Assembly: GCF_000003815.2 (NCBI RefSeq)
Contig: NC_049990.1
Span: forward strand, 12,546,715-12,610,714
Length of the DNA stretch: 64,000 bases
Origin: Branchiostoma floridae
Taxonomy: Eukaryota > Chordata > Leptocardii > Amphioxiformes > Branchiostomatidae
Reading direction: 5' to 3'
Below the pieces are notes generated by a model, which was given only the letters and a program-made list of their open reading frames with translations, did no database searches and was not told the origin of the DNA. A program made the position numbers and the translations under genes. Below are positions 8,542-62,100 of the stretch, in pieces. Positions within the stretch are counted from its first letter, which is position 1. Each line of letters opens with the position of its first letter.

Positions 8542-9930
8542 CTGTGGGAGTAGCTGTGTATTGGAACTTTATTTTTAACAAGTGTCGACAGGATTTCAAA
8601 TGGTGCTTTTGTACAGAGGGTAAGCTCATACCAATGATTTTAACTAATGCATCCCAAAGTTGCCTCAAGGTTATTTTATAAGAGTCAAGATAGATTTTAA
8701 AAAAACAAGTAGAACAATGTAGAAGAGAAGATGATGTAACATTAATTTTAGTGGAGCATTTTAGTTAGGGTAGTTATTTTTTCCAGAAATTGGCAAGCTG
8801 AGGATATATGTAAGCTCAGTTATACGTAAGCTCAGTTCACTTTTATGTCTATAACGAAATATGCATGGTGCAAAGCAACTGGGCATCGGAAAAGAAACGG
8901 TTGCTTCGATATGCGTCTTTGCTTTTTGGCAGTATTTTTAGCACCCGCTTGTCTAGGGAATGTAAATGGTTTTACTTTTAGTAAAAAAAAGGCAGTTGTG
9001 CCATCGAAAATGCGTACGATTATACCTACTTAAACGGGGAAGCAGTTATGATTATGATTAACTTTCCTTATGTATGGTGCTTACTAATTCTGTATAAAAA
9101 TTGCCCTAAAGCAAAAGATATTGTACAAGCTGACGTTATGTATAATGTGTGCAGAACTGTGGCAGTCTACCATGTCCTATGGTGCTATACAAATATGTCC
9201 AGCCAACTTTCTCAGGATCAGTATATCTAGACACATCTTTTAGACTTCTTTCTTCGTAGTCTCCTGCTAAAAAAAAGATATGAAAAAAAAGGTGCCAAAG
9301 TTTTCAATGAAATATTCACAGATATAGCCAGTTCTTAAATGTTTCATTTGTTTGTATTTTTATACAACAGTCATCTATATTTATATTCTAGCATTAAGAG
9401 ATAACGTTCCATCTTTGTAACCAGTGAGGTAAGCACATTATAAGGCTGATGTGTATAATTTACACAATGCGTATCCAGGCCTTCTGTGCCTGTTCCATAA
9501 GGCTAGGTGCATGCTGAAAATTTGTGTAGTATTTCTACGTTTGTCAATGTCATTTTACAAGCAGTAATCATGCACCAAAACAATCAAGTTAGACTAGGAC
9601 AAACTGTAGGATAGACTGTTTTCTCCCACTAATGGTATCCTTTGATAGACTTTCCCGTACTTAAACCCTACCGACCTTGACTGAAGGTCACCTGCAAGTC
9701 TGGCCCGTCCCGAGGGTGTAGTGGGCCGCTCCATAGTCATTCCATACGTTTGGCCCACCACAGCCCGGGAACTGTAGATGGCCTGGAGTCAACGTCATGG
9801 GAGGGTGTCTGTAGCTTCTCCCCTCCAACATGTTACACTGTGGAACATTGTTGATGACCAGAGTTTATTGTGTCAGCCCTGTTGTAATAATTTGATTGCA
9901 TTATCAATAAATCACAATCTTTGTGTAGAT
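8542..9930 (+). other. Probable 3' UTR of the collagen IV gene with polyA signal
   Basis: No coding gene is visible after the collagen stop at 8541. The stretch is AT-rich with many stops in all frames. A canonical AATAAA lies at 9906-9911, followed by T/G-rich sequence, and is the first convincing polyadenylation signal on the plus strand after the stop. It would give a 3' UTR of about 1.4 kb. The exact cleavage site is inferred. Confidence 0.5.
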
Positions 9931-31479: not shown

Positions 31480-34400
31480 TCATGTCATCTGTGGTCCACT
31501 GAAGGATCGTCGTCGGATGACCCGGAAGCGCCAGAGGGAGAGTTGCCACAAGGCTGGAGCCAGCAGTAGGCTTAAGGTGGTCACCCCGAGAACTAGCAGA
31601 TACACCTGCAACATAAGAACATAGACATACAGACAAGAACTAGCAGATACACCTGCAACATAAGAACATAGACATAGAGTTAAGAACTAGAAAGGCCGAC
31701 ATTTGCTTAAGAGCAAATACAGCATATTTCAGCCATACCCCTTCCCACGCAACATTGGACTGTTCCAAATCACCCCTGCGCAAAAATGGAACATCCTCTT
31801 AACAGTACATTATCCCCCAAAGTGGACTGGTATTGTGAATTGACTCCAGGTAAAAACAGAGCTTGCTTCTATTTTTCAGAAAATGACAATAATCACACCT
31901 TCCATTCAGAAAATTTTCATCATGACTGAAAATTGTTGAATGACTTCATGTAATGTCATTAACAATTTTCAGTACGATAACTAGGTGTAAGTTTAAAAAA
32001 GTATAAGCTCCTTGTGATGTGGGTACATTTATTATTGCAATGAACTTTTTTTATTCAAGTAGGGCATACGATTTAATAATTATCAAGCAGGTGCAGGTAC
32101 TGTAGGAGCGTTTGTTTTCTTCAAGCTGTAAAACTGTTAAACTGTTTTACTTTGTATGCAATCAACCATCGAGCCTATTCTTATTTTAGTTTAACAACTT
32201 CCTGCCAGACCCGGAAGATACTATTGAACCTTGTTCGAGGATTTATTTTCGTCTGTCTGGTCAGTCTGTTCATACCCTGGCGCTGAGAGTGTTTTATTGG
32301 GCTGAAACTCTGGCAGTTTAAAGTTACTTACAATTTAAATGTTCAAAGTTTATGCCAAACAACAACAGCACTAGGAAATGTGGCCACTATAGACAGGTGG
32401 TCACTATAGAGAAAATGCTGATCTATTGACTAGGAGCCATACGTTACACATGATTTCAGTACACTGATCATTAATCATATAAACATTACACAGGTAAGCC
32501 AATTGTTTAGATGTACAATTAAGTTCAAATAATTCTGAAGAGAAATATTGATGAGAAAATAATCATTCTCGCCACTGTCTAACTTATAATTACGTATCAA
32601 AACTAAACGCAGATTTTCTAACTAACGCACCTTTCGCCGACTTCATCATAGGACCGCCGGCTATCAATCAAACACGGCTGTTGATTAGACTTAGAGTTTC
32701 AAACAGTCATGTGCTGTGTGCCAGTTGACAGCGAACTTCATGCTACGTGATGTTTTACATTGCTTGGACCTTCTTTCCTACAGCGGTGCTTCTACAAAAT
32801 ATTTAGACTGTAACACTGAGTTTTATAGAATAGAATTTGACGCAGAACAGCGTTTTTTGCTGGGTATTTTTTTTGAAACATGTCCGTGGGAATATCAGCG
32901 AGGCGGCGACGTAGGGATATCAGACCGTCAACAAAAGTCGCACGGCGGCTAACGGCGCAGCGAAGATACTAGCGCTATAAATAAGCGCTTCAACTAAGGA
33001 TGGCAACCCGTACAATATTTTTGTATACTGTTGAGCTAAGTAAAGTTTGTTGTTTATGAGGTTTTAGTTGTCTTTGAAGCTTTGACCCGAAATATTTTAA
33101 AGTCAAACTGCTGAAGAGAAGTAAGTGACTGCTACGATTATCGTAGATATGGCCCTAAAAAAACTGATAAAAGAAGCCTTCTCAATAGCCTAAAATGCAA
33201 GAGCTTCCGGGGGGGCTTCGCCCACCTGGGTCCCCCCCACAGTGGCCCTGCCCCTGGACCCCGCCAGGGACATTCGGCGGCCCCCGGACCCCTGTCCGAC
33301 GCTTTGAAAAAATCCTGGCGAGAAGTCTGTACGGCCTGAGTCTTCAAGTTAACGTATTGTGTGGTCCCGCTTATGAATATTAATTAGCCTTCGCTTTCCT
33401 CTTCGCTGATTGGCTGAACCATTAATTGAATTAACTCTTCCTGCCGGCTAGACGCAGGTGCAGATGTCGGCTCTGTGGGGTGAACGTCCGAAAGGTCACG
33501 GCATGGAGAACGAAAGAAAACCAATTTCCCCTAAAAAAAGTGCTGTAATTAAGCCTTTTACAGTACTTTATGCCAAAAATTTTACTTGGATCATTTTACC
33601 AACTATCTTATGCCTATCTATACCAAATGTTACTCATACCAGGGTACAGGGGTGCAAAATATACCGTTATAAGACCGTCAACAACAGTCGCACGGAGCTA
33701 ACAGCGCAGCGAAAATACCATCGCTAGCGTTTCAACTTCGGATAACAAGTTATAAGTACTGTTGAACTCAGTAACGTTAAAGTTTGTTTTTAGTTGCCTT
33801 TGACGGTTTGACCTGAAACAGTGTTACGCTAAACTCCTGAAGAGAAGTTAAGTGACTGCTGCGATTATCATAGATATGCCCCTAAGAACTGATACAATAT
33901 AAAGCCTTCTGAATAGTCTAAAATGCGAGAGCCTTAGGCGGGCTTTGCTCCCCCTGGCGGGAACACTGCTATATACGGGATCATGAGGCCCCGCTTATGA
34001 ATATTAATTAGCCTTTGGCCTCCTCTTCGCTGATTGGCTAGGTCTTTGATTCAATTAACTCTCCGGCTGACGCGCACAGGTGTGGCTCTGTGCGGGGTCA
34101 CGGAAGGTCACGTCAGGAGGCCAAAAGAAAACAAATTTCCCCTCAGAAAAGTGCCAAAATTAATCATTTTAAAGTTGTTTATGTCAAAAATTTTACTTGA
34201 ATCTTGTTACCAAGTATCTAATGCCTATCTATACCAAATTTCAGGTCATTTAATTGTAATACCAGGGTACAGGAGCCAAAAGTGTCCTTTTTTGGTCAAA
34301 AATTGGCCAAAAATCGCAAAAATAAGCATTTTGTTGCACTGTACACCAAAAGTGTTATTGAATTTATATGAAGGGATTATCAAGGCACATCTGTGTCAAA

Positions 34401-37400
34401 TCAAGCTCATTCGGTTGCAATACCAAGGTACAGGAGCCAAAAGTGTCCTTTTTTGGTCAAAAATTGGTCAAAAAATCGCAAAAATAAGCATTTTGTTGTA
34501 CTGTACACCAAAAGTGTTCTTAAATTTATATGGGGGCATTATCAAGGCACATCTCTGTCAAATTTCAGCTCATTTGGTTGTAATACCAGGGTACAGGGGC
34601 CAAAAGTGTCCTTTTTTGGTCAAAAATTGGTCAAAAAATCGCAAAAATAAGCATTTTGTTGTACTGTACACCAAAACTGATATTGAATCTATATGGGGGA
34701 CTTATCAAGGCACATCTGTGCCAAATTTCAGCTCATTCGGTTATAATACCAGGGTACAGGGGGCCCAAATATACAGTTTTGGTCTTAAGATGACCAAAAA
34801 ACCTTAATAAAATCATTTAAGAGACAGATATGGAAAAAATGAAAAAAACACCCGAGGGTATTGGCCCTACCCTTGTGCCAAATTTCAAGTCATTCGGTTG
34901 AGGAACAACGGAGATACCGTGTTCTGAAGATTTGACAGGAGAAAGAAAGAAAGAAAGAAACATTACGAATACAATATATTTCACCATACCTATGGTATGG
35001 CTGAAATATAACTAGCAGATACACCTTCAACATAAGAACATTGGCATAGAGTTAACCAAACCAGAATGGCTGAACTTAAACTTAGATATAAGATTAAGAA
35101 AAGGTTTTGCAAGTGAACACATTTTTGCTAAATTTGACTTCTTTTTGCACTTGGGGAAGAACACAAACAACTAGAGGGGAAAACAAACAAAGACAAACAA
35201 ACAAAAAACAATACCTCTGTTTTTACGAGATAATAGATACACACCTCCCTTGAGATGATGCCCAGGCGGCGTGCTCTGCTGCCCAGCACAAAGGAAAACT
35301 CGCTGACCTGCGCCAACCCAGCGGCCACTAACCACTTCAGGAAGGACTGGCGGGAGGTCAGGAACAGGCCCAGCACTGCAACCCCCACGATGAACTGCAA
35401 CAATCATTAGAATTTGTCAGACTTTTTACTCTTTGAAAACCTGTGCTTATTTTTCTGTATTGCATACCTGGTAAATGGTTTAATGGTGTAACACATATTA
35501 AAGGTTTGTACTGAAGAGTAAGGTACATGTACCAGTTGCATATACAGACAAATTTATTTCATCAACTTACATTGTGACAGTCCCCTACTTTTTTAGATAA
35601 GGGCGGTGGTTTCTCTAAGTTGCTAGAGGTGTGGCTTTGTCATAGAGACTTGTCAGCAATTTGAACTTGGTACCTCCAGGTTCTGAGTCAATAGCCCTAC
35701 CCACAAGGCCCCTGTATGCATGCCACCTTGCTGTGAAACCACATACATGTAAAATGTTTCAAAACCATATCCAGTTGCTTGAGTAACTATTTTTGGCGCA
35801 CATACACGTACATAATGTAAACATGACGTTTATATTGATCAATGTTGTACACTCACTAAACTTACACTTGTCATGAGAAATAGACATCAAGTGTAAGTAC
35901 TTAACATGTACACCAAATTCACTACACATAAGTAGAATAATGTCCCTAGTTTCTTACCTTTAGTGAGACCACTACCAGTGTCATGATGGCGAGTATACTC
36001 AACTCATATACCACAAAGGTTGGAAAGACATGAAGACCTGCAAGTAAAGTAAAATCAGTTCTCTAACAACGGTCAGTCTAAGTGTTCACACGTTTTATTG
36101 TCTAAAGAAAATAAAAAATCAGCAAACTATGCAAGCTGTACATGGGTCATAAAAACATACTGAAATATTTGGTGACAATACGATATGAGCATAAAGATTA
36201 TATCCTTTACAGCTGTTAACAGACAAAATTTCTTCATACAAGGAAAGGTGGAGGACATATAAGAGATTAGGACTTGACTAAGTCTTTTAGTGTCTCTTCA
36301 GTGTTTTATGTTGAGTACCCAGGTTATAAACAATTATAGACAAACTGTGAGATTCTCACCTATTGTAGCAAAGAAGATACTGGCAAATATGTCCTTGACA
36401 GGGTCGATGAGACTGAGCAGTTCTTCCACCACCTGATGTCCCTGTGAGCTGACCAGTACACCTGCCAGGAAACACCCAACTTCCATGGACACACCCAGCA
36501 CATCCGTCAACTGACATGGGTAGAAATCAGACATGATAATGTTACCTACATATACTGTGTGGATTCTTTATCGTTAACCCTTTTATGCATATTGCTTTGC
36601 AACCGTTTATTCCCACAGGCAAAAACTTCAGCATAGAGGATGTATGATTGTGTGAGAGTATGTAGTTTGGGCAGCATATGTAGTGTTTTGGCACTAGTTA
36701 CTGTCTGTTTCAAGTGTCCCCTAGCTCTTTACGACAATGAACAGTGTACCACGGCTTCACGTCCCGACCTAAGGACCACAACCTTTTCCGGTAGTGTGCA
36801 TGTTGGGTAAACGACACAGCCGGAATCAAACTCACGGCATCTAGTTCCAGAGGCAGGGCCGCTAGCCACTGGAGTACAATGCTACTGACACACATGCAAA
36901 CACAGAGACTTACATAGACACACACAGGCACAAAGACAGGCACAGACATTGCTTACCTGTAGCATGAGGAAGCAGAGGGCCACTGTCCCCATCAGTAGCA
37001 TCTCCTTACTGCCCTGCAGGTGGAGTTTCCTGAAGAACGGGGACATGACGTACTTGGACAGGACAAAGCTGAGTCCCAGCACCACGACCACAGCCTCCAG
37101 CAGGGCCATGATGGCCTTGACCGTGTCCCAGGCCGAGCGGTGGTCAGTGGTGGACTGGCCGATAACGTCCGGCGGGCCTGACGGGGCCAGGGTGGGCATG
37201 ATGGCCATGATGAGGCCCAGCATCACATCCTGCATCACCAGTATGCCCAGCAGGATGGAGGAGTAATCCAGCTCACTGGAGACTGTGACACACACAGAAC
37301 ATGAAGAGGTACTATAGTACAGCTCACATTGGTCCCACAGTCTGTGTGTTTGTAACTTTTACTTCAGATGCCTTTGATTCCTTTTGTACTTTTGTACACG

Positions 37401-43400: not shown

Positions 43401-44215
43401 AACAGTGAAGCTTGCAACAAGGCAAACAAAACAGTCACACAGTTTACTCTTTGTCGAAAACATTTTGTTTACTCCTGCCAAATGAGCATACTAGCAATTA
43501 CAAATAATACAATACTCACCTTTTTAGATTCATCAAAAACATGTTCCTGCATGCTCTCTTCTAACTTGTCGGCAGCTTTGGCCACATCAGCGAGAATGTC
43601 TTCCAGAAAGGTGGAACTGTTAGCCTTGTGCGCCAGTTCTTGTACCTTATTCTCCACTCGGACCAGTTCACTATACTCTTCCTCTTCCTGTAGAGTAGCA
43701 GCTTTTAACGCATCTAATCTCTGTAAACTGGCTTCTCTCATATAAGAGATGTCTCTATAATTTCCCGACAAGGCGTGTTTCAAGCTGTGCACAGCCTGGA
43801 AAATGGCAGTTTCACTGTCGTTTAATTCTCTTTGGAAGACAACAAATGTGTGAATCTCAAATTTCTTCTCCTCTTCTGTAGCGTCCTTCTTTTTCTTGAC
43901 CGACTCGATTCCTTGGTTTAATCTGTTCATGATTCTTTTCTTCAAATCTAAGAGACCCTGTAGATGGTCGCAGGACTGACCTGTCCACTTGGTCCACCTG
44001 TCCTTGGCTCCCACTATTTTTTGGATTGGTGGTTTGATCGGTAACTGCACTGCCCTTCGCAACAGTCCATGATCAACATCTAATTCTCTGTTTTTCGGCT
44101 TTTCAATTTCCTTCTTGTTTTCAGCCTTCTTCTGCACACGTTTAGTACTGGCATGTTTTATCATCGCAACAAAAAGTATCAGTAAAAGCAACAATGTTAA
44201 ACGGTTAGAAACCAT
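31480..44215 (-). CDS. TMCO3: TMCO3-like membrane protein (coiled coil plus Na+/H+ exchanger-type domain)
   Basis: Putative monovalent cation:proton antiporter of the CPA2/KefB type. Exons from the 5' end: 43520-44215, 42765-42947, 41773-41901, 40878-40970, 40113-40320, 36957-37282, 36360-36510, 35958-36037, 35245-35394, 31480-31605; 2142 nt, 713 aa (human 677). The first exon encodes a signal-like hydrophobic stretch ([13 protein letters not shown]), basic residues, then a charged coiled coil to about residue 230 (VHTFEIF-like [21 protein letters not shown]). From about residue 294 come the exchanger membrane segments: [106 protein letters not shown]. Start set at 44215 (AAGATGG); ATGs at 44236 (CCACCATGA, also a strong context) and 44308 are in frame. 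A further in-phase exon at 38575-38673 would add 33 aa. Confidence 0.95.
32926..34275 (+). repeat. Direct duplication, two units of ~600-745 bp
   Basis: Matching landmarks in order: GACCGTCAACAA (32926 and 33676), GAAGAGAAGT.AAGTGACTGCT (33112 and 33838), CCCGCTTATGAATATTAATT (33366 and 33991), GCTGATTGGCT (about 33405 and 34030), TATGCCTATCTATACCAAAT (about 33609 and 34221), ACCAGGGTACAGG (about 33638 and 34261). The first copy is longer and GC-richer. Confidence 0.8.
34225..34805 (+). repeat. ~162-bp tandem repeats, about 3.5 copies
   Basis: The landmark ACAGG(A/G)GCCAAAAGTGTCC recurs at about 34269, 34430 and 34593, with a diverged copy at 34755. Each unit contains GGTCAAAAATTGG and GCACATCTGTG blocks. 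The array makes a long open frame of 257 codons whose translation is itself repetitive, so it is not called as a gene. Confidence 0.85.
34940..34961. repeat. Short (GAAA)n tract
   Basis: Four to five GAAA units between the 162-bp repeat array and the right end of the composite element. Confidence 0.9.
35470..35722 (-). repeat. SINE copy, degenerate
   Basis: Shares TGGTGTAACACATA, the GGTGTGGCTTTG block and the B-box-like TTGAACTTGGTACCTCCAGG with the copies at 22360 and 42190. In a TMCO3 intron. Confidence 0.45.
36700..36892 (-). repeat. tRNA-derived SINE, second type
   Basis: On the minus strand: CCAGTGGCTAGCGGCCC (A-box-like), then GAGTTTGATTCCGGC (B-box-like). The body then contains GGACGTGAAGCCGTGGT. 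The body differs from the other copies. It ends 65 bp from the donor of TMCO3 exon 36957-37282. Confidence 0.5.
38575..38673 (-). CDS. TMCO3: Candidate cassette exon of TMCO3 (33 codons)
   Basis: On the minus strand an acceptor GTGACAG precedes 99 nt open in one frame, followed by the donor GTAGTT. The exon is phase 1 at both ends, the same phase as the flanking junction (40113 to 37282), so it can be included or skipped without shifting frame. It encodes an acidic, Pro/Ser-containing stretch beginning [12 protein letters not shown] and ending SKWIGK. It would sit just after [23 protein letters not shown]-type sequence and before ELDYSS, in a loop between membrane segments. Human TMCO3 has no equivalent segment at that point as far as I recall. 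Splicing is inferred. Confidence 0.55.
42190..42490 (-). repeat. SINE copy
   Basis: Contains GGCATAACACACCA, TTGATCCACTAACACCAGGAA, AAGTGTGGTGGGAA and the tRNA-like 3' blocks seen in the copies at 22360 and 50405, in the same order. In a TMCO3 intron. Confidence 0.5.
42490..42712. repeat. MITE-like element with TAGGCTTAGG ends
   Basis: TAGGCTTAGGTCCCATTTC at the left and GGTAATTGGGGCCTAGGCCT at the right form imperfect terminal inverted repeats. The inside has AACGAAAAATAAG mirrored by TTATTTTATTTTTGGTTTCC. The same family recurs at 58596-58788. Confidence 0.6.
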
Positions 44216-44434
44216 CTTGTGAACTTTAACTATCATGGTGGAATGAAACAGTTTTTTAAGTAGTCTAGTAATTGTTAGAACTGGAAACAATCTCTTGACA
44301 AATATCATTTACATGGAGGTTACTCGATTTGTCATCACATAAGGAATAACGGATTGCACATTAGAACATCACTACAATGAAATATCATAAAACACAGTTC
44401 AGCCAATTGGCTGTCTATCCATTTGGTGGGATGT

Positions 44435-44560
44435 TTATGTCCAGAGGCTGTACACAAAATTCATCATGTTGGTCACAACTAGCATGAGGCCCAGGACTAT
44501 TCCCATTAACACTACTGCACTGATGGCATTGTTGGCCATGATGTTGGAGGTGTCTGCCAT
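44435..44560 (-). CDS. 41-aa single-pass membrane microprotein ORF upstream of TMCO3
   Basis: Not recognised as any family I know. The ORF starts at ATG 44558-44560 in a strong context (AGCATGG: A at -3, G at +4), follows an in-frame TGA 15 nt upstream, and ends TAA at 44435-44437. It has a short polar N-terminus (MADTSNIMANN), one hydrophobic segment of about 20 residues (SAVVLMGIVLGLMLVV), then TNMMNFVYSLW. A good acceptor (CCCTGCAG) on the same strand at about 44618 makes 44617 the start of an exon containing the whole ORF. No polyA signal separates it from the TMCO3 start 219 nt downstream, so both may share one mRNA. It could instead be a uORF without a stable product. Confidence 0.5.
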   Translation of the reverse strand: MADTSNIMANNAISAVVLMGIVLGLMLVVTNMMNFVYSLWT

Positions 44561-44617
44561 GCTGGATAGGACTGTTCACACTGGCTGTGGCCGGGATCGT
44601 TCGTGGGTGTTGTCTCA

Positions 44618-45951
44618 CTGCAGGGCAAGAAAGACATTATTATTGTTACCTCAGGCATTCGAAAGGCAAAGACAGAGAAATACTGTTTACGACAGTCTAG
44701 TAGCTATAATACAGTCTGTGTTAACAGTGTTTGCTTGCAACCTACGTAAAGTTGGTGAAGTCTGCCATCTCCGATTGCCCAGTTGTCTATGATTCTTTCC
44801 TATGAAATTGACGAGTCAACTGCAGCTGTTGTTATTGATTCTTCAACAGGCTTATATCGTGCTGTACATACACAGAAACCAGTCACATGTCATGTAAAAA
44901 ACACAAATCCGGGAACATGTTCTCAGACGATAAGCAGAATTGTACATCGTACACACCGGTTGTTCAACTCAAGACCCTTAAGTATTTAATTAGCTGACCC
45001 ACCTAGCCCCTTTAATTTCAGGTCAATACACAAAGGGCTGTTCCAATAAGGACAGAAGGGGGTTATGGGTGGAGAAGGGGTTAGGTGACAAGACAATAGG
45101 GAAATAGGGGTCAAGTTTTAACATGGTGAGACTGGAAGTCTGTGACGGCCAGCATTGGACAGAAGGGCATGCTTTGAAATCAACTGACAGGGGAATAAAA
45201 GTGAAAGTTCTTCAACCTGCTTCCACATATAATTTTTGGAACAGTCCAATGACAGAAAGAGCCCCCCACCCACTTTCACTCAACTCAGATTACAATCTTT
45301 ACACTAAAAATTCACACAATGAAATTTTGTGAATGGTTACCAACGGCTCCAATATAATGTGCTCTATCTTTTTTACATAATTTAACGAATACCAACCTAA
45401 ATCAAACCGTTGTCATTCACACATCAGCACAACCTGGCAACCTTGACTTGTTTGGAACGAACCACGGTATGCTAAAGGGGTTAGAAATGTTGGTAACGTT
45501 ATATGTTGTTGTTTTATACACGTTATTTTTATCATCAGTAATGTAACCTATCGATTTCAAGTTTGCTTCATTTACTTAGTTTTGTGAATTTTTCTCATTC
45601 TATATAATTTTAATTTGCGAATTTTCTGAACGCCAATAAAGATGTTTTATAAAATATTCCCCCCTCTAATTTTTTTCTGTTGAGCTTGTCCGGCCATTGG
45701 TGTTGCCGATCGTCAGATTTGAGATTTTTGAGCGGCAATTATCGGTGTTTTTCGCACATTTCTCACTTTAGGAAATAAACGGGTGCTAACAACTGAACTG
45801 GAAACATTTGTATATCCGTTTCTTCACATATTATGGCAAAAGTTTAACAAAAATCGTCTGAATTTTGGAGTGATATCTCGGGTAACCTCTGACCTCTCCT
45901 GGAACGCTTGCGCAGTGTTGGCTGAGGTTGAACAAGGAACTCCATGGGAAG
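44618..45951. promoter_or_regulatory. Divergent upstream region, TMCO3 (and microprotein) / DCUN1D
   Basis: Must contain the 5' non-coding exon(s) and promoter of the TMCO3-side transcript and the promoter and 5' UTR of DCUN1D. A reverse CCAAT (ATTGG at about 45694) and TTGCGCAGTG (about 45908) are possible promoter motifs; no TATA box is convincing. An inverted-repeat element (about 45034-45249) lies inside. No other coding content seen. Confidence 0.45.
45034..45249. repeat. Possible MITE with GGNCTGTTCCAA ends
   Basis: GGGCTGTTCCAATAAGGAC at 45035 is mirrored by TTTTGGAACAGTCC near 45234-45247. A similar end (GGACTGTTCCAAAT) occurs at about 31749. Confidence 0.45.
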
Positions 45952-48900
45952 ATGGTATGAGCTGCGCAATTCTTGGTATTTTTCCTTTCTACAACATTAC
46001 CTGACGTAATTTGATAGCGCTAAATAACACACACCACTCACCTTACCTTTTTGTCGTTCAAAGCACAAGCTGAAATCGTCGCAAAAGGAGAAAGTCCGCC
46101 AGTTCATCGCCTTTACTCAGACTGGTGAAAAGACCGCCATTTACTGTTTGTCACAAAACGACTGGAAACTCGACATCGCCTCGGACAACTATTTCCAGAA
46201 CCCAGAGGCGTACTACCGAGAACACAAGCCCGCCGTCGACAGAAAGAAGCTAGAGCAGCTTTTCAACCGATATAAAGGTGGGCACATGGCCTGTTTTGTC
46301 TTGATTTGAACACTAAACATCAACCATACTAGTCAGGTCATATTTTTGTAATCGTTGAGTCATCTTACTTTTCTTAGTGCAACAATCTTGAGCTAAGGAC
46401 ATCTGTGTTTGTTTTCGTCAATATTATTTTGGCCAAGGGTTGAAGTTCAGGATATTATAAGGTTATGACAAGACCGAGGACTAGGTTTGATATATGCACA
46501 ACTGTTTCGTGAAGTCAGTTGTTTGACAATTACAAAATTTATCAGTCCACTCCTGATGTCATTTATGAATTTTGAAGAAAAAACATAACACTGGTCTCAT
46601 ATGGCTGTTGTTAGATCTCAATATCTCTAGAAGTCTTTTTACCCCCTTATAGTTTATAGATTGTAAAAAAAATCGTCATGACACATTAATTAAAAAACAA
46701 TTTCAACCAAACCTAGATGACCTATTGAATTTTTAAAAAAATATGATTTGCATATACAAAGCAATGATTGTTATTTGTTACAACTGGCAGCAATACAGTC
46801 ACAGCAAGTTTATTGCCCTTATGAATATGCACATTACATGTGAATGTCTTAACCAAAATGCATAGTTTTTGTACCTGAAAGCCCAGAAAACTAAACTATA
46901 TTTTTGTGACATTTTCTGACAGAATCAAAGATGTTTGAGTGTTGTTTTTGATATCCTGCAAATTTGGTGATGACAGTGTGTCATTTTCCTTGCAGTTTAT
47001 CTTTGTATTACGACATATGATTATGAGAACCATTGAGCAACAACAACTAGACCATCTTTATTCACCCCTTTACCCTCTTAAACTTGTTCTTATTTTGAGA
47101 ATTTGATTATGATTCGATATCCAACTCTAGTAGGAGCTAGATTCAGTTACATCTGCTGGGACTTACTTTTGTGGTAGAAAAATTTGGATTTTCACTGATA
47201 AGTAGTACAGCAGTGATACATTGGAAATGCATATTGTATGTACATGTATGGATATGTGGATATGTGGTTATGAAAATATGTTTGTCTCATTTCTTCTTCA
47301 GATCCTCATGAAGAAGACAAGATTGGAGTGGAGGGGGTGGCCAGATTTTGCGATGACTTGAACCTGGACCCCGCCAGTAGAGCAGTTCTGGCCATAGCAT
47401 GGAAATTCAAAGCGGCAACACAATGTGAATTCACTAAAAAGGAATTCCTGGAAGGAATGACAGAGCTAGGGTGAGTTCTACCATTCATAGTGCTTTCATT
47501 CTTAGCTAGGCATCAGCCATCTGGAGGGATACATATTCTACCTTTCCTTACCATCTACAAGTTTTACGAAGGAAAAAGAAGATTAATAAAAGTTTGTGTT
47601 TAAGACCAAAAATGTTTTAGTGCAACCACAATATATGGACTGCACCAAATTGTCGCCAATTGTCATCTAGAATTGCAAATTTATAAAGACTTTTAAAAAA
47701 CTGGCAAAATAGCACGGTATAACACCATGTCTATGCTACTAATACTAGTGCAAAATGCCACAATTTATATATTTTATTATCTTACCTATGTAAACATCCT
47801 TTTATCACTGCAAATCTCTCTTTGATGCACTTTGAATCATTGAACATGAGTGTGATTTTCTGACCTTCATACACAAATGCCTTTTATGTCAGTGCGACTA
47901 CAAGGAAAATTGGCAAAGTTGGTGCAATTTTCTGGTGGCTAGTGCTATTTGGCACAGTCCAGTTTCGGTGCATGGTTTTAGAGGCAAAGTCACTTACAGG
48001 GCTCGAAATACTGGGTGCATGTGCACCCAGGTGCACCCAAAATTGGAGCTGTGCACCTAATTATTTTCTGTGGGTGCATAGGGTGCACCCAAATATTTTC
48101 TTAGGTTTATGTATGTAATACTAGTATACAACTTATTCTTGACATCTAAGTTAGAAAGATGATGGAAATGTCTGTCATGGTACTTGTTTAAGAATTTGAT
48201 AGCTTGTAACTAAGTTTTTTATTATTAGGCTATTACTTAAATTTAAGTGGTGCACCCAAAATTTTTTTAGTGCACCCAATTTTTTAAGCTGGGTGCACCA
48301 GTGCACCTAATCCCAAAAATGAATTTCGAGCCCTGCACTTAGGTGATGATGGACACTGGAAAAATTGTTGGGTTATGGTAGGGCTGTTAGACTCAAAGAC
48401 TAAATTAGAGCTAAAAGATTTGATTTGGGCAATAACATCAGAGGACATAATTATGTTTGGGCTTAGTCACTGTCAGCACTTAGTGGCTGGCCATCATATG
48501 CATCATCCAAGCCTATTGGGTAGGTATCTAAAGTCAATGTTGTGTTGTGACAGATTTTAAAGGGTAAAAAGATTAACATGGATTTTGTTGTTAAGTATTC
48601 AATTATGTGAATATCAAAATAAAAACATGTCATCTTTGCCACTGTAGCCATTGGGTAAACATAATAACTGCCCAAGGCTATGGAGGATAGGGAAGGATGG
48701 AGGAAGAGAGTCATGTCCATCCGTGCAACCAGCATGCCCGGATGATGATGATGAAACATAATAGCAGTAAATACTATATACTTTTTATGTAATAAACAAA
48801 TCTATATTAGTATTCAAGGTAAAAAAAATCTACGAGTTACAAATGATACTGGTAATCTAAACCAATCAAAATTTGCCTATCAATACACATATTTGTATAT

Positions 48901-59100: not shown

Positions 59101-62100
59101 TCCTTGTGTGTGCCGCCTGTGCGCTGGTACCGGACCCGGTATCGGCTGATGGTCAGGTCGGTCGGTGCCGTCCAGGACATCGCGACGTAGTCCATCCCCA
59201 CATCCGTAAAAGTCAGGTCAGCGAGGGCTGGGAAAGGAGTTATACTGGCTCAAAGAAATGACCTGTCTCGTCTACTGGCCCAAATAAATTATCTTTGAAA
59301 TATGCATTATAAAAACATATGGAATGGTCCTCATCACCTGACTTATTTTTATAAACATGCAGTTATGTCTCCTACAACAAGTTCTCTGGTGTATAAAGAC
59401 GTATACTGTAAGTAAGTACTGCGCAGCGTTTGTACGTTAAAACATGTGCTCCATTGAGATGCATTGAGGATTGGCTAAATGGGTCGTGGCTTCTATCTAA
59501 TGCACGGTCCCCCGGTGGTTGGTTATACCCATCAAAGTAACCAAACGTTATATAATTACTGACGTAGACATTTCAAATAACACCCATCTTTGCTACAAAC
59601 AAGTACCAGCCAATGGCACGTCCTTACCTGCACATGACATACCGTCGCCCCTGTAGCCCGAGTTACAGGTGCATGCGAAACTGCCGTCTGTGTTGGTACA
59701 GAAGGCTTTGGAGCTGCAGTTGTGGATACCGGTCATACATACATCGATATCTGTGGAACAAACACATCATTCAATCAAAACTTCTTATGTAGATATTAAC
59801 TAAGCTTCGAAGTCTGAAATACGTACTGTCTACTTTAAAAACCTTGGAAACTTCCATACCGGTACAGTTGACACCGTCTCCGCTGTATCCTGAGTCACAA
59901 GCACAGGTGAAACTGCCAGGTGTGTTGGTACAGGAGGCATGAGGGCTACAGTTGTGGCTGCCATTTGCACATTCGTCGTTGTCTATAAGAACACATGCAT
60001 GCTTTATATCTCGCCTGAAACGCCTATATCTCAACAACTCATACAATATTGTACCCAAAATAAAGGATCTAGGAATGAACAGTACACTTCCATACTAGTG
60101 CAGTTTTGTTTTCTATTTGCCTGTACGACAGACGTAAACGATGTGGTACTGCACTCAAGTGGGTAACTTATTTATTTTGAGAGTGCCACATGGAAAGGAC
60201 ATACAGACACAAGGTAAAGGTAGCCCCATGCTCTTTTTGGGAGGCTGTAAGGACAGTATGTTGTTATCCACTGTCTCGGGCATGATATTGGAAAGCAGAG
60301 CCCGACCCACTCCTTCCGTCGCCTTTTACCGCCCAACCGAAGTCAGGTACCCATGTTTACACCTGAGTGGAGTGAGGAAGGTCGTGCAAAGTGCCTTTGG
60401 CAAGAGCACAAAATCGGTGACAGGACAGGATTCAAACCTGGGACACCTTGGTCCTGAGCCAAAAATTCTGCTGTTACACCACACCACACCACACGACATC
60501 ACAAAGTACTTGTAGCTTACCTGTACAGTTGAGACCGTCTCCGCTGTAGCCTGACTTACAAGCACAGGTAAAAGTGCCAGGTGTGTTGGTACAGGAGCCA
60601 CGAGGGCTGCAGTTGTGGGTGCCATTCGCACATTCGTCTTTGTCTATAAGAACACATGCAAATAGCACTTGACCTTCGTCTTCCCAACCCCTACCTACAT
60701 ACCAAATATCATAGTAGTCCATCAAGAGGTTCTCAAGTTATGATGACCACAAATATGCGGACACACAGACACACACACAAACACACACACAAACACACAC
60801 ACACACAGACACACTCAAAACTATACCTCCATTTTTTCATGGAGGTAACAAAACACCATACCAGTACAGGTAACACCGTCACCGCTATAGCCTGAGTCAC
60901 AAGCACATGTGAAACTGCCTTCTGTGTTGGTACAGGAGCCTTCGGGGCTGCAGTTGTGGGTACCATCCGCACATTCGTCATTATCTGTACAGGTAAACCA
61001 CAAGTAAGCTTTCCTGTCTAAGAATGTTCCTTAATAATATCATTGTAATATCACGAGTGGGCAAAATCATTTGTGTACCGAATCTTGTCCTCCAGAACAA
61101 TTATAAGCATCCTTCCATACCGGTACAGGTGACACCGTCTCCCGCGTAGCCTGAGTCACAAGCACAGGTGAAACTGCCAAGTGTGTTGGTACAGAAGCCT
61201 TCGGGGCTGCAGTTGTGGGTACCATCCGCACATTCGTCATTATCTGTACAGGTATAAACTACAAGTGAGCTTTCTTATCTTAGAATGTTCTTATAAGCTT
61301 AATAATGTCATCAATCACGAAAGGACACCATCATTTGTGAACTGAATCTTGTCATCCAGAACGTTAACAATTATAAGCATCCTTCCTTACCGGTACATGT
61401 GACACCGTCGCCCGCGTAGCCTGAGTTACAAGCACAGGTGAAACTGCCAGGTGTGTTGGTACAGGTGGCTTCAGAGTGGCAGTTGTGACTCCCATCTGCA
61501 CATTCATTGATGTCTGTATAAACACATGAACGTAGCTGTTGACCCTGTACTTTAAAACATTCTATGACGTTACTACATAAGGTCGTTTAACTTTAATTGA
61601 TTACTGTGAACTAATCTTAGTTAGCGCTGGGTAACTAAACCTGGTACGTGTAACTGTAAAGTTGTTTAGGTACAGGTCCGGACCTAAACATCCGGTACAG
61701 ATAGAGATAAATGTCCTGTAACGAACCATGTGTACCTATACTTGTGCCTAAAATCTGTTTAGATACACAGCTCTAAGCTTGGTTAACAAGAAGAGATGGA
61801 AAAATACACTGTCAGCTGTGTACATGTACTTTACACTACTTTCTATCATACAGAAACACGAATTTACGTCTGTTGACAAACTGTTCTAAGGATAAATCAT
61901 GATGGAAATACGCAGTCACATACCGTAACAGTAGGCACCATTTCAACTGTATCCTGTGTTACAAGTACAGGTGAAACTGCCGTCTGTGTTGGTACAGGAA
62001 GCTTGGGAGTGGCAGTTGTGGGCACCAGTCGTACATTCATTGATATCTGTATACAAACAAGTGACAATTAATCTTGATTCTTTACTTACTCACATAACGT

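Follow-up and report, generated by a model that had tools for sequence, protein, structure and literature searches.

The window analysed here, a stretch of 64,000 nucleotides of the Branchiostoma floridae genome (GCF_000003815.2, contig NC_049990.1, positions 12,546,715 to 12,610,714), holds on its minus strand a gene that we take to be TMCO3 and, head-to-head with it, DCUN1D on the plus strand. The first coding exon of TMCO3 has no Pfam match over the cut-off, and pieces of two later exons hit Na_H_Exchanger at E values of 3.7e-05 and 3.8e-04, in each case short of the curated Pfam cut-off; the first coding exon is found once in its own genome, with no second haplotype there. DCUN1D is assigned to DCUN1D1/2 by its PDB match (DCN1-like protein 1, E 2.2e-30) and by UBA_4 and Cullin_binding, both over the cut-off. 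Among the neighbours, SEH1 was recognised from the top PDB matches of an exon piece, and a WD-repeat gene was read as ELP2, ELP2 chains being among the PDB hits for the piece searched but not first. The genes dcun1d2 and tmco3 are described as adjacent in tetrapods and several teleosts (PMC11026864), and bidirectional promoters are reported to be common to 25% (3,950 of 15,884) of neighbouring amphioxus protein-coding genes (PMC6292497). No Rfam match at gathering scores was obtained in the window. Tandem repeats were also seen: a 47-bp unit at 31589-31690 (2.2 copies, 94% match) that spans the acceptor end of the final coding exon of TMCO3 and apparently leaves this acceptor sequence in two copies; a 163-bp unit at 34235-34760 (3.2 copies, 90% match) within a TMCO3 intron, across which a plus-strand frame is open for 257 codons (34034-34804); and a 259-bp unit at 60856-61505 (2.5 copies, 84% match) that takes in the greater part of the exon stretch at 61389-61514, judged EGF-like by eye, and may reflect duplication of an exon. 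The features around the TMCO3 start are the following:

45400-46199, no strand: CpG-rich stretch, candidate shared promoter of DCUN1D (plus) and TMCO3 (minus); observed/expected CpG 1.17 and 0.99
45952-45954, plus strand: likely DCUN1D start codon, by inspection; gtatga directly after it, next exon at 46064 (HKLKSS...)
45767, minus strand: candidate 3'-terminal base of a non-coding first exon of TMCO3 (TAAA/gtgagaa, donor score 6.8)
44561-44617, minus strand: 5' part of the micro-ORF exon, without ATG; acceptor directly upstream (ctgcag/TGAGA)
44560-44435, minus strand: micro-ORF of 41 codons plus TAA, a putative single-helix membrane microprotein (from the ORF list, codon score and helix model)
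44434-44216, minus strand: spacer of 219 nt from the micro-ORF stop to the TMCO3 ATG; codon score negative in the three same-strand frames
44215-43520, minus strand: first coding exon of TMCO3; start resembling a signal peptide on inspection, donor score 12.3

An earlier note on this DNA had pointed to an ORF of 41 codons whose start context is strong and whose product has one hydrophobic segment; its exon has a good acceptor, it lies 219 nt ahead of TMCO3 with no poly(A) signal in between, and it resembles no family known to the author of the note. In all these respects the note agrees with the results below, for which the ORF, its coding signature, the acceptor score, the single genomic match and the helix were computed here. 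The micro-ORF opens with an ATG at 44560 in the context TCCAGC/ATGG (A at -3, G at +4), closes with a TAA ending at 44435, and encodes the 41-residue peptide MADTSNIMANNAISAVVLMGIVLGLMLVVTNMMNFVYSLWT. Its frame carries stops at the exon start and immediately before the ATG, and therefore begins within the exon. The part of the exon lying 5' of this ATG has no other ATG; being first in the exon and in strong context, the micro-ORF ATG is expected to be translated, provided that the mRNA includes this exon and that an upstream exon brings no strong ATG of its own. The ORF holds no CpG where 6.7 would be expected, a depletion deeper than that of the adjoining TMCO3 exon (18 observed, 30.0 expected) and one that would fit gene-body methylation.

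The peptide is strongly hydrophobic, its best 19-residue Kyte-Doolittle mean (KD19) being 2.65 over residues 12-30, and it contains a single acidic residue and no Lys, Arg or His, which speaks against a classical mitochondrial presequence. An AlphaFold2 single-sequence model folds residues 2-40 into one helix (pLDDT 92.8); with almost nothing beyond the helix, the peptide is probably tail-anchored. It has one GxxxG (Gly20, Gly24), and Gly20, Gly24, Asn31, Asn34 and Ser38 lie on a common helix face. Such clustering was matched in 101 of 20,000 permutations for G/N/S/T and in 365 for G/N within residues 16-40, and in 768 for G/N/S/T and 2,046 for G/A/S/T/N within residues 12-40; the stripe is weak evidence, because the ranges were picked after the pattern had been seen and the outcome varies with the residues and range chosen.

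The micro-ORF exon has 44617 as its first base and lies directly behind ctttcttgccctgcag; its acceptor, gtctttcttgccctgcag/TGAGA, scores 10.3, the top value among the acceptors listed from 46000 to 43900. The best sites near each of 27 marked exon stretches have a median of 6.8; these sites were themselves selected for high score, and the 27 include the start exon of TMCO3, which should lack a true acceptor. All splice scoring used generic position weights. From 44618 to 44314 no donor scores above 3. For the non-coding first exon, donors at 45894 (6.4), 45003 (8.8) and 44957 (8.3) compete with that at 45767, and any of these four candidates may be the one used; a first exon ending at 45767 would, if it started above 45829, include two upstream ATGs (45829 and 45807). 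To our knowledge lancelets lack spliced-leader trans-splicing. Just upstream, at 44768-44746 on the minus strand, is a second ATGGCAGAC start (MADFTNFT) that resembles the start of the micro-ORF and is followed by a weak donor (4.1). Considered as an upstream exon, it was rejected, since joining it to the 44617 acceptor leads into another frame that stops, by eye, after about 42 codons.

A CpG content near expectation (observed/expected about 1) is found at 45.4-46.4 kb, the sole CpG-rich part of 43.0-48.2 kb: the 400-bp segments starting at 45400 and 45800 give 1.17 and 0.99, and between 9 and 55 kb a value of at least 0.9 is reached by only 6 segments in 115. The segments over the micro-ORF give 0.30 and 0.34, and those starting at 44000, 44200 and 44400 range from 0.30 to 0.62. 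TMCO3 begins on the same strand 219 nt beyond the micro-ORF stop, with its ATG at 44215; a second in-frame ATG lies at 44236 in a CCACC context, so that the gap may be 198 nt if TMCO3 starts there. A scan for 11 poly(A) hexamers found none with its start between the micro-ORF stop and the TMCO3 ATG; a weak CATAAA (44439) overlaps the micro-ORF stop, and the first ATTAAA (43922) is already within the TMCO3 coding exon. No acceptor scoring at least 4 occurs from 44446 to the TMCO3 ATG. Taken together, the CpG content, the splice scores and the missing poly(A) signals suggest a promoter shared with DCUN1D and a single transcript for both ORFs.

The spacer itself holds eight more ATGs, spread over 44422-44308, and six of these have T or C at -3. 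That at 44308, the last of the eight, shares the TMCO3 frame, as does the one at 44236, and a start at either would make TMCO3 longer; the other seven do not extend TMCO3 and would hinder its initiation on a shared mRNA, so that in this respect a separate transcript fits better. This burden on TMCO3 translation is the main argument for a separate small-protein gene overlapping the 5' end of TMCO3, a gene that would use the same or its own promoter and have its own 3' end or run on, TMCO3 mRNA starting downstream or splicing past the micro-ORF. The coding signature set out below would suit such a gene too, and a TMCO3 transcription start within the micro-ORF exon is possible. Against it stand the same CpG values, low here and near 1 at the candidate head-to-head promoter, the empty poly(A) scan between the ORFs and the want of an acceptor scoring at least 4 from 44446 to the TMCO3 ATG, and we regard a separate gene as doubtful. 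The earlier note had left two readings side by side; that of an upstream ORF (uORF) on the TMCO3 mRNA is now favoured, on CpG, poly(A) and acceptor evidence, and the separate gene less so.

The coding signature was assessed against 1,490 marked codons from exons of TMCO3, ELP2, DCUN1D and the EGF/FN3 gene in the window, exons that were chosen by eye and include TMCO3. The synonymous codon score of the micro-ORF (0.157) is close to those of held-out TMCO3 (0.150) and the EGF gene (0.150), with DCUN1D at 0.107 and ELP2 at 0.018; since true ELP2 exons thus come out near zero, the score discriminates weakly. When each gene in turn was left out of the codon table, the micro-ORF still scored 0.135-0.164. 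Its stretch scores negative in the other five frames; these include the three antisense frames, on which ground the 108-residue antisense ORF at 44466-44792 (plus strand) was rejected. When codons for this same peptide were sampled at non-coding triplet usage, 5 of 20,000 controls reached the synonymous score, and Markov controls of local composition reached the micro-ORF score in 25 (ORF), 7 (leader) and 93 (exon, the weakest control) of 5,000 each. Among 286 other ATG ORFs of 30-200 residues, beyond position 9000 and outside the marked exons, seven reach the full codon score of the micro-ORF and four its synonymous score (0.126 in that version). Two of these seven overlap a ZP-N and a C-type lectin match respectively, and so appear to be unmarked real exons; a third lies antisense to that with the ZP-N match, a fourth is near marked EGF exons and three are without assignment. 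Equal hydrophobicity was met in 3 of the 286, in none of the 148 ORFs of 35-60 residues, and none of the 286 combines the full codon score with a KD19 of at least 1.8. Among 20,000 leaders simulated with the leader's dinucleotide composition, 1,860 had a first-ATG ORF at least 41 codons long, and only 58 and 3 had one that also reached a KD19 of at least 1.8 and at least 2.6. The length by itself is therefore unremarkable; in codon choice and in length combined with hydrophobicity, two separate signals, the micro-ORF exceeds chance expectation. What was found is an upstream ORF with a coding signature, as a microprotein uORF on a bicistronic mRNA should have.

Searches for relatives were made to E 10, at which HMMER filters remove most matches above about 0.1. 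No Pfam family reached its cut-off with the peptide; Syndecan (PF01034; 12.6 of the 25.2 bits needed) and Coa3_cc (PF09813; 11.8 of 27 bits) fell far under theirs and were rejected as probably due to membrane-helix composition. NCBIfam and PDB gave no match, and tblastn and blastn within the window returned the locus itself or else E 2 or worse. In its own genome (513,431,437 bases) the micro-ORF was found once in both peptide and DNA searches, which score the best candidates only; no second copy or haplotype was found, and such a single match does not point to a repeat or to paralogues. The reading as a chance ORF in the TMCO3 leader, perhaps a regulatory uORF making no functional protein from a peptide that is not conserved, draws on this absence of homologues in Pfam, NCBIfam and PDB, on the ordinary length and on the exon-composition control. 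The synonymous codon choice, the two other local controls and the rarity of comparable hydrophobicity weigh against it, and it is unlikely. It is very improbable that the apparently complete ORF is really one exon of a longer protein made by different splicing, be it from another gene or as an added N terminus of TMCO3: the micro-ORF does share the frame of TMCO3 (chance 1 in 3), but in-frame stops lie directly upstream of it, no donor above 3 follows, and three in-frame stops, its own included, precede TMCO3.

Codon usage, hydrophobicity, start and splice context, the single genomic match and the predicted helix together bear out the membrane microprotein proposed in the earlier note, and it is likely that the micro-ORF is a real protein-coding small ORF, be it bicistronic or a separate gene. 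On the more specific reading, in which a uORF of the TMCO3 mRNA encodes this single-helix membrane microprotein and tunes TMCO3, we are evenly divided. TMCO3 transcription would then begin at the head-to-head promoter common with DCUN1D, and a non-coding first exon would be spliced to the 44617 acceptor, giving one exon with the micro-ORF, the 219-nt spacer and the TMCO3 start. The micro-ORF, in the TMCO3 5' leader, would be translated from its strong AUG into a 41-residue, probably tail-anchored, single-helix membrane microprotein, and TMCO3 would be made by leaky scanning or reinitiation across the spacer, partly repressed, so that the micro-ORF may also dampen and gate TMCO3 output in the manner of SLC35A4/STREMI. 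Translation, localisation, TMCO3 regulation and any antiporter partnership of the product are inferences. That the microprotein is a small subunit or regulator of TMCO3 as a CPA2-type antiporter, binding it through the Gly20/Gly24/Asn31/Asn34/Ser38 face, is distinctly unlikely. We know of no small subunit of TMCO3.

Few human bicistronic transcripts survive strict filtering (14 by the account in PMC13303939), and TMCO3 figures among the orphan solute-carrier-like proteins in PMC9333335. In the literature we found nothing linking TMCO3 with a uORF or micropeptide, and the main texts of PMC13303939 and PMC5932603 do not name TMCO3. A second protein on the TMCO3 mRNA, if true, would offer a concrete handle on TMCO3 regulation; the subunit reading, if true, would mean that both parts of a complex are always co-expressed from a single animal mRNA. 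As the neighbours at this locus are linked in vertebrates too, the pair would let one ask when bicistronic pairs arise, and a peptide that proved not to be conserved would make this an ordinary uORF. The peptide has the look of a genuine single-helix membrane protein not described before, and one RNA here may encode two proteins.

Sarcolipin, phospholamban and the regulins are single-helix membrane micropeptides. They resemble the present peptide in having a short polar N terminus and a single C-terminal hydrophobic helix containing polar residues, and differ from it in that its Asn-Phe pair is near the C terminus and not at the helix start; the phospholamban/sarcolipin family is absent from its Pfam and PDB matches at E up to 10. 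The pairs MIURF-MIEF1, PYURF-PIGY and ASDURF-ASNSD1 likewise have two proteins predicted per mRNA with the small one upstream, as given in the main text of PMC13303939; they involve other genes and passed that paper's long-read, Ribo-seq and conservation filters, whereas the present pair is a prediction from sequence. The closest comparison is with the SLC35A4 uORF (STREMI), reported to encode a membrane microprotein and to tune the downstream transporter (PMC13303939). STREMI (SLC35A4-MP) is described there as a 103-residue protein of the mitochondrial inner membrane that has two membrane segments, its ORF lying close to SLC35A4 in jawed vertebrates and, by the main text, not with SLC35A4 in lancelets (PMC13303939). 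The present peptide, with 41 residues, one predicted helix and a place upstream of TMCO3, differs from it in length, helix number and locus, and identity of the two was rejected on these grounds. Both are nevertheless upstream ORFs in the mRNA leader of a membrane transporter (in our case a predicted one), each for a hydrophobic microprotein with a GxxxG, and in both systems the upstream and the downstream ORF are expected to be protein-coding.
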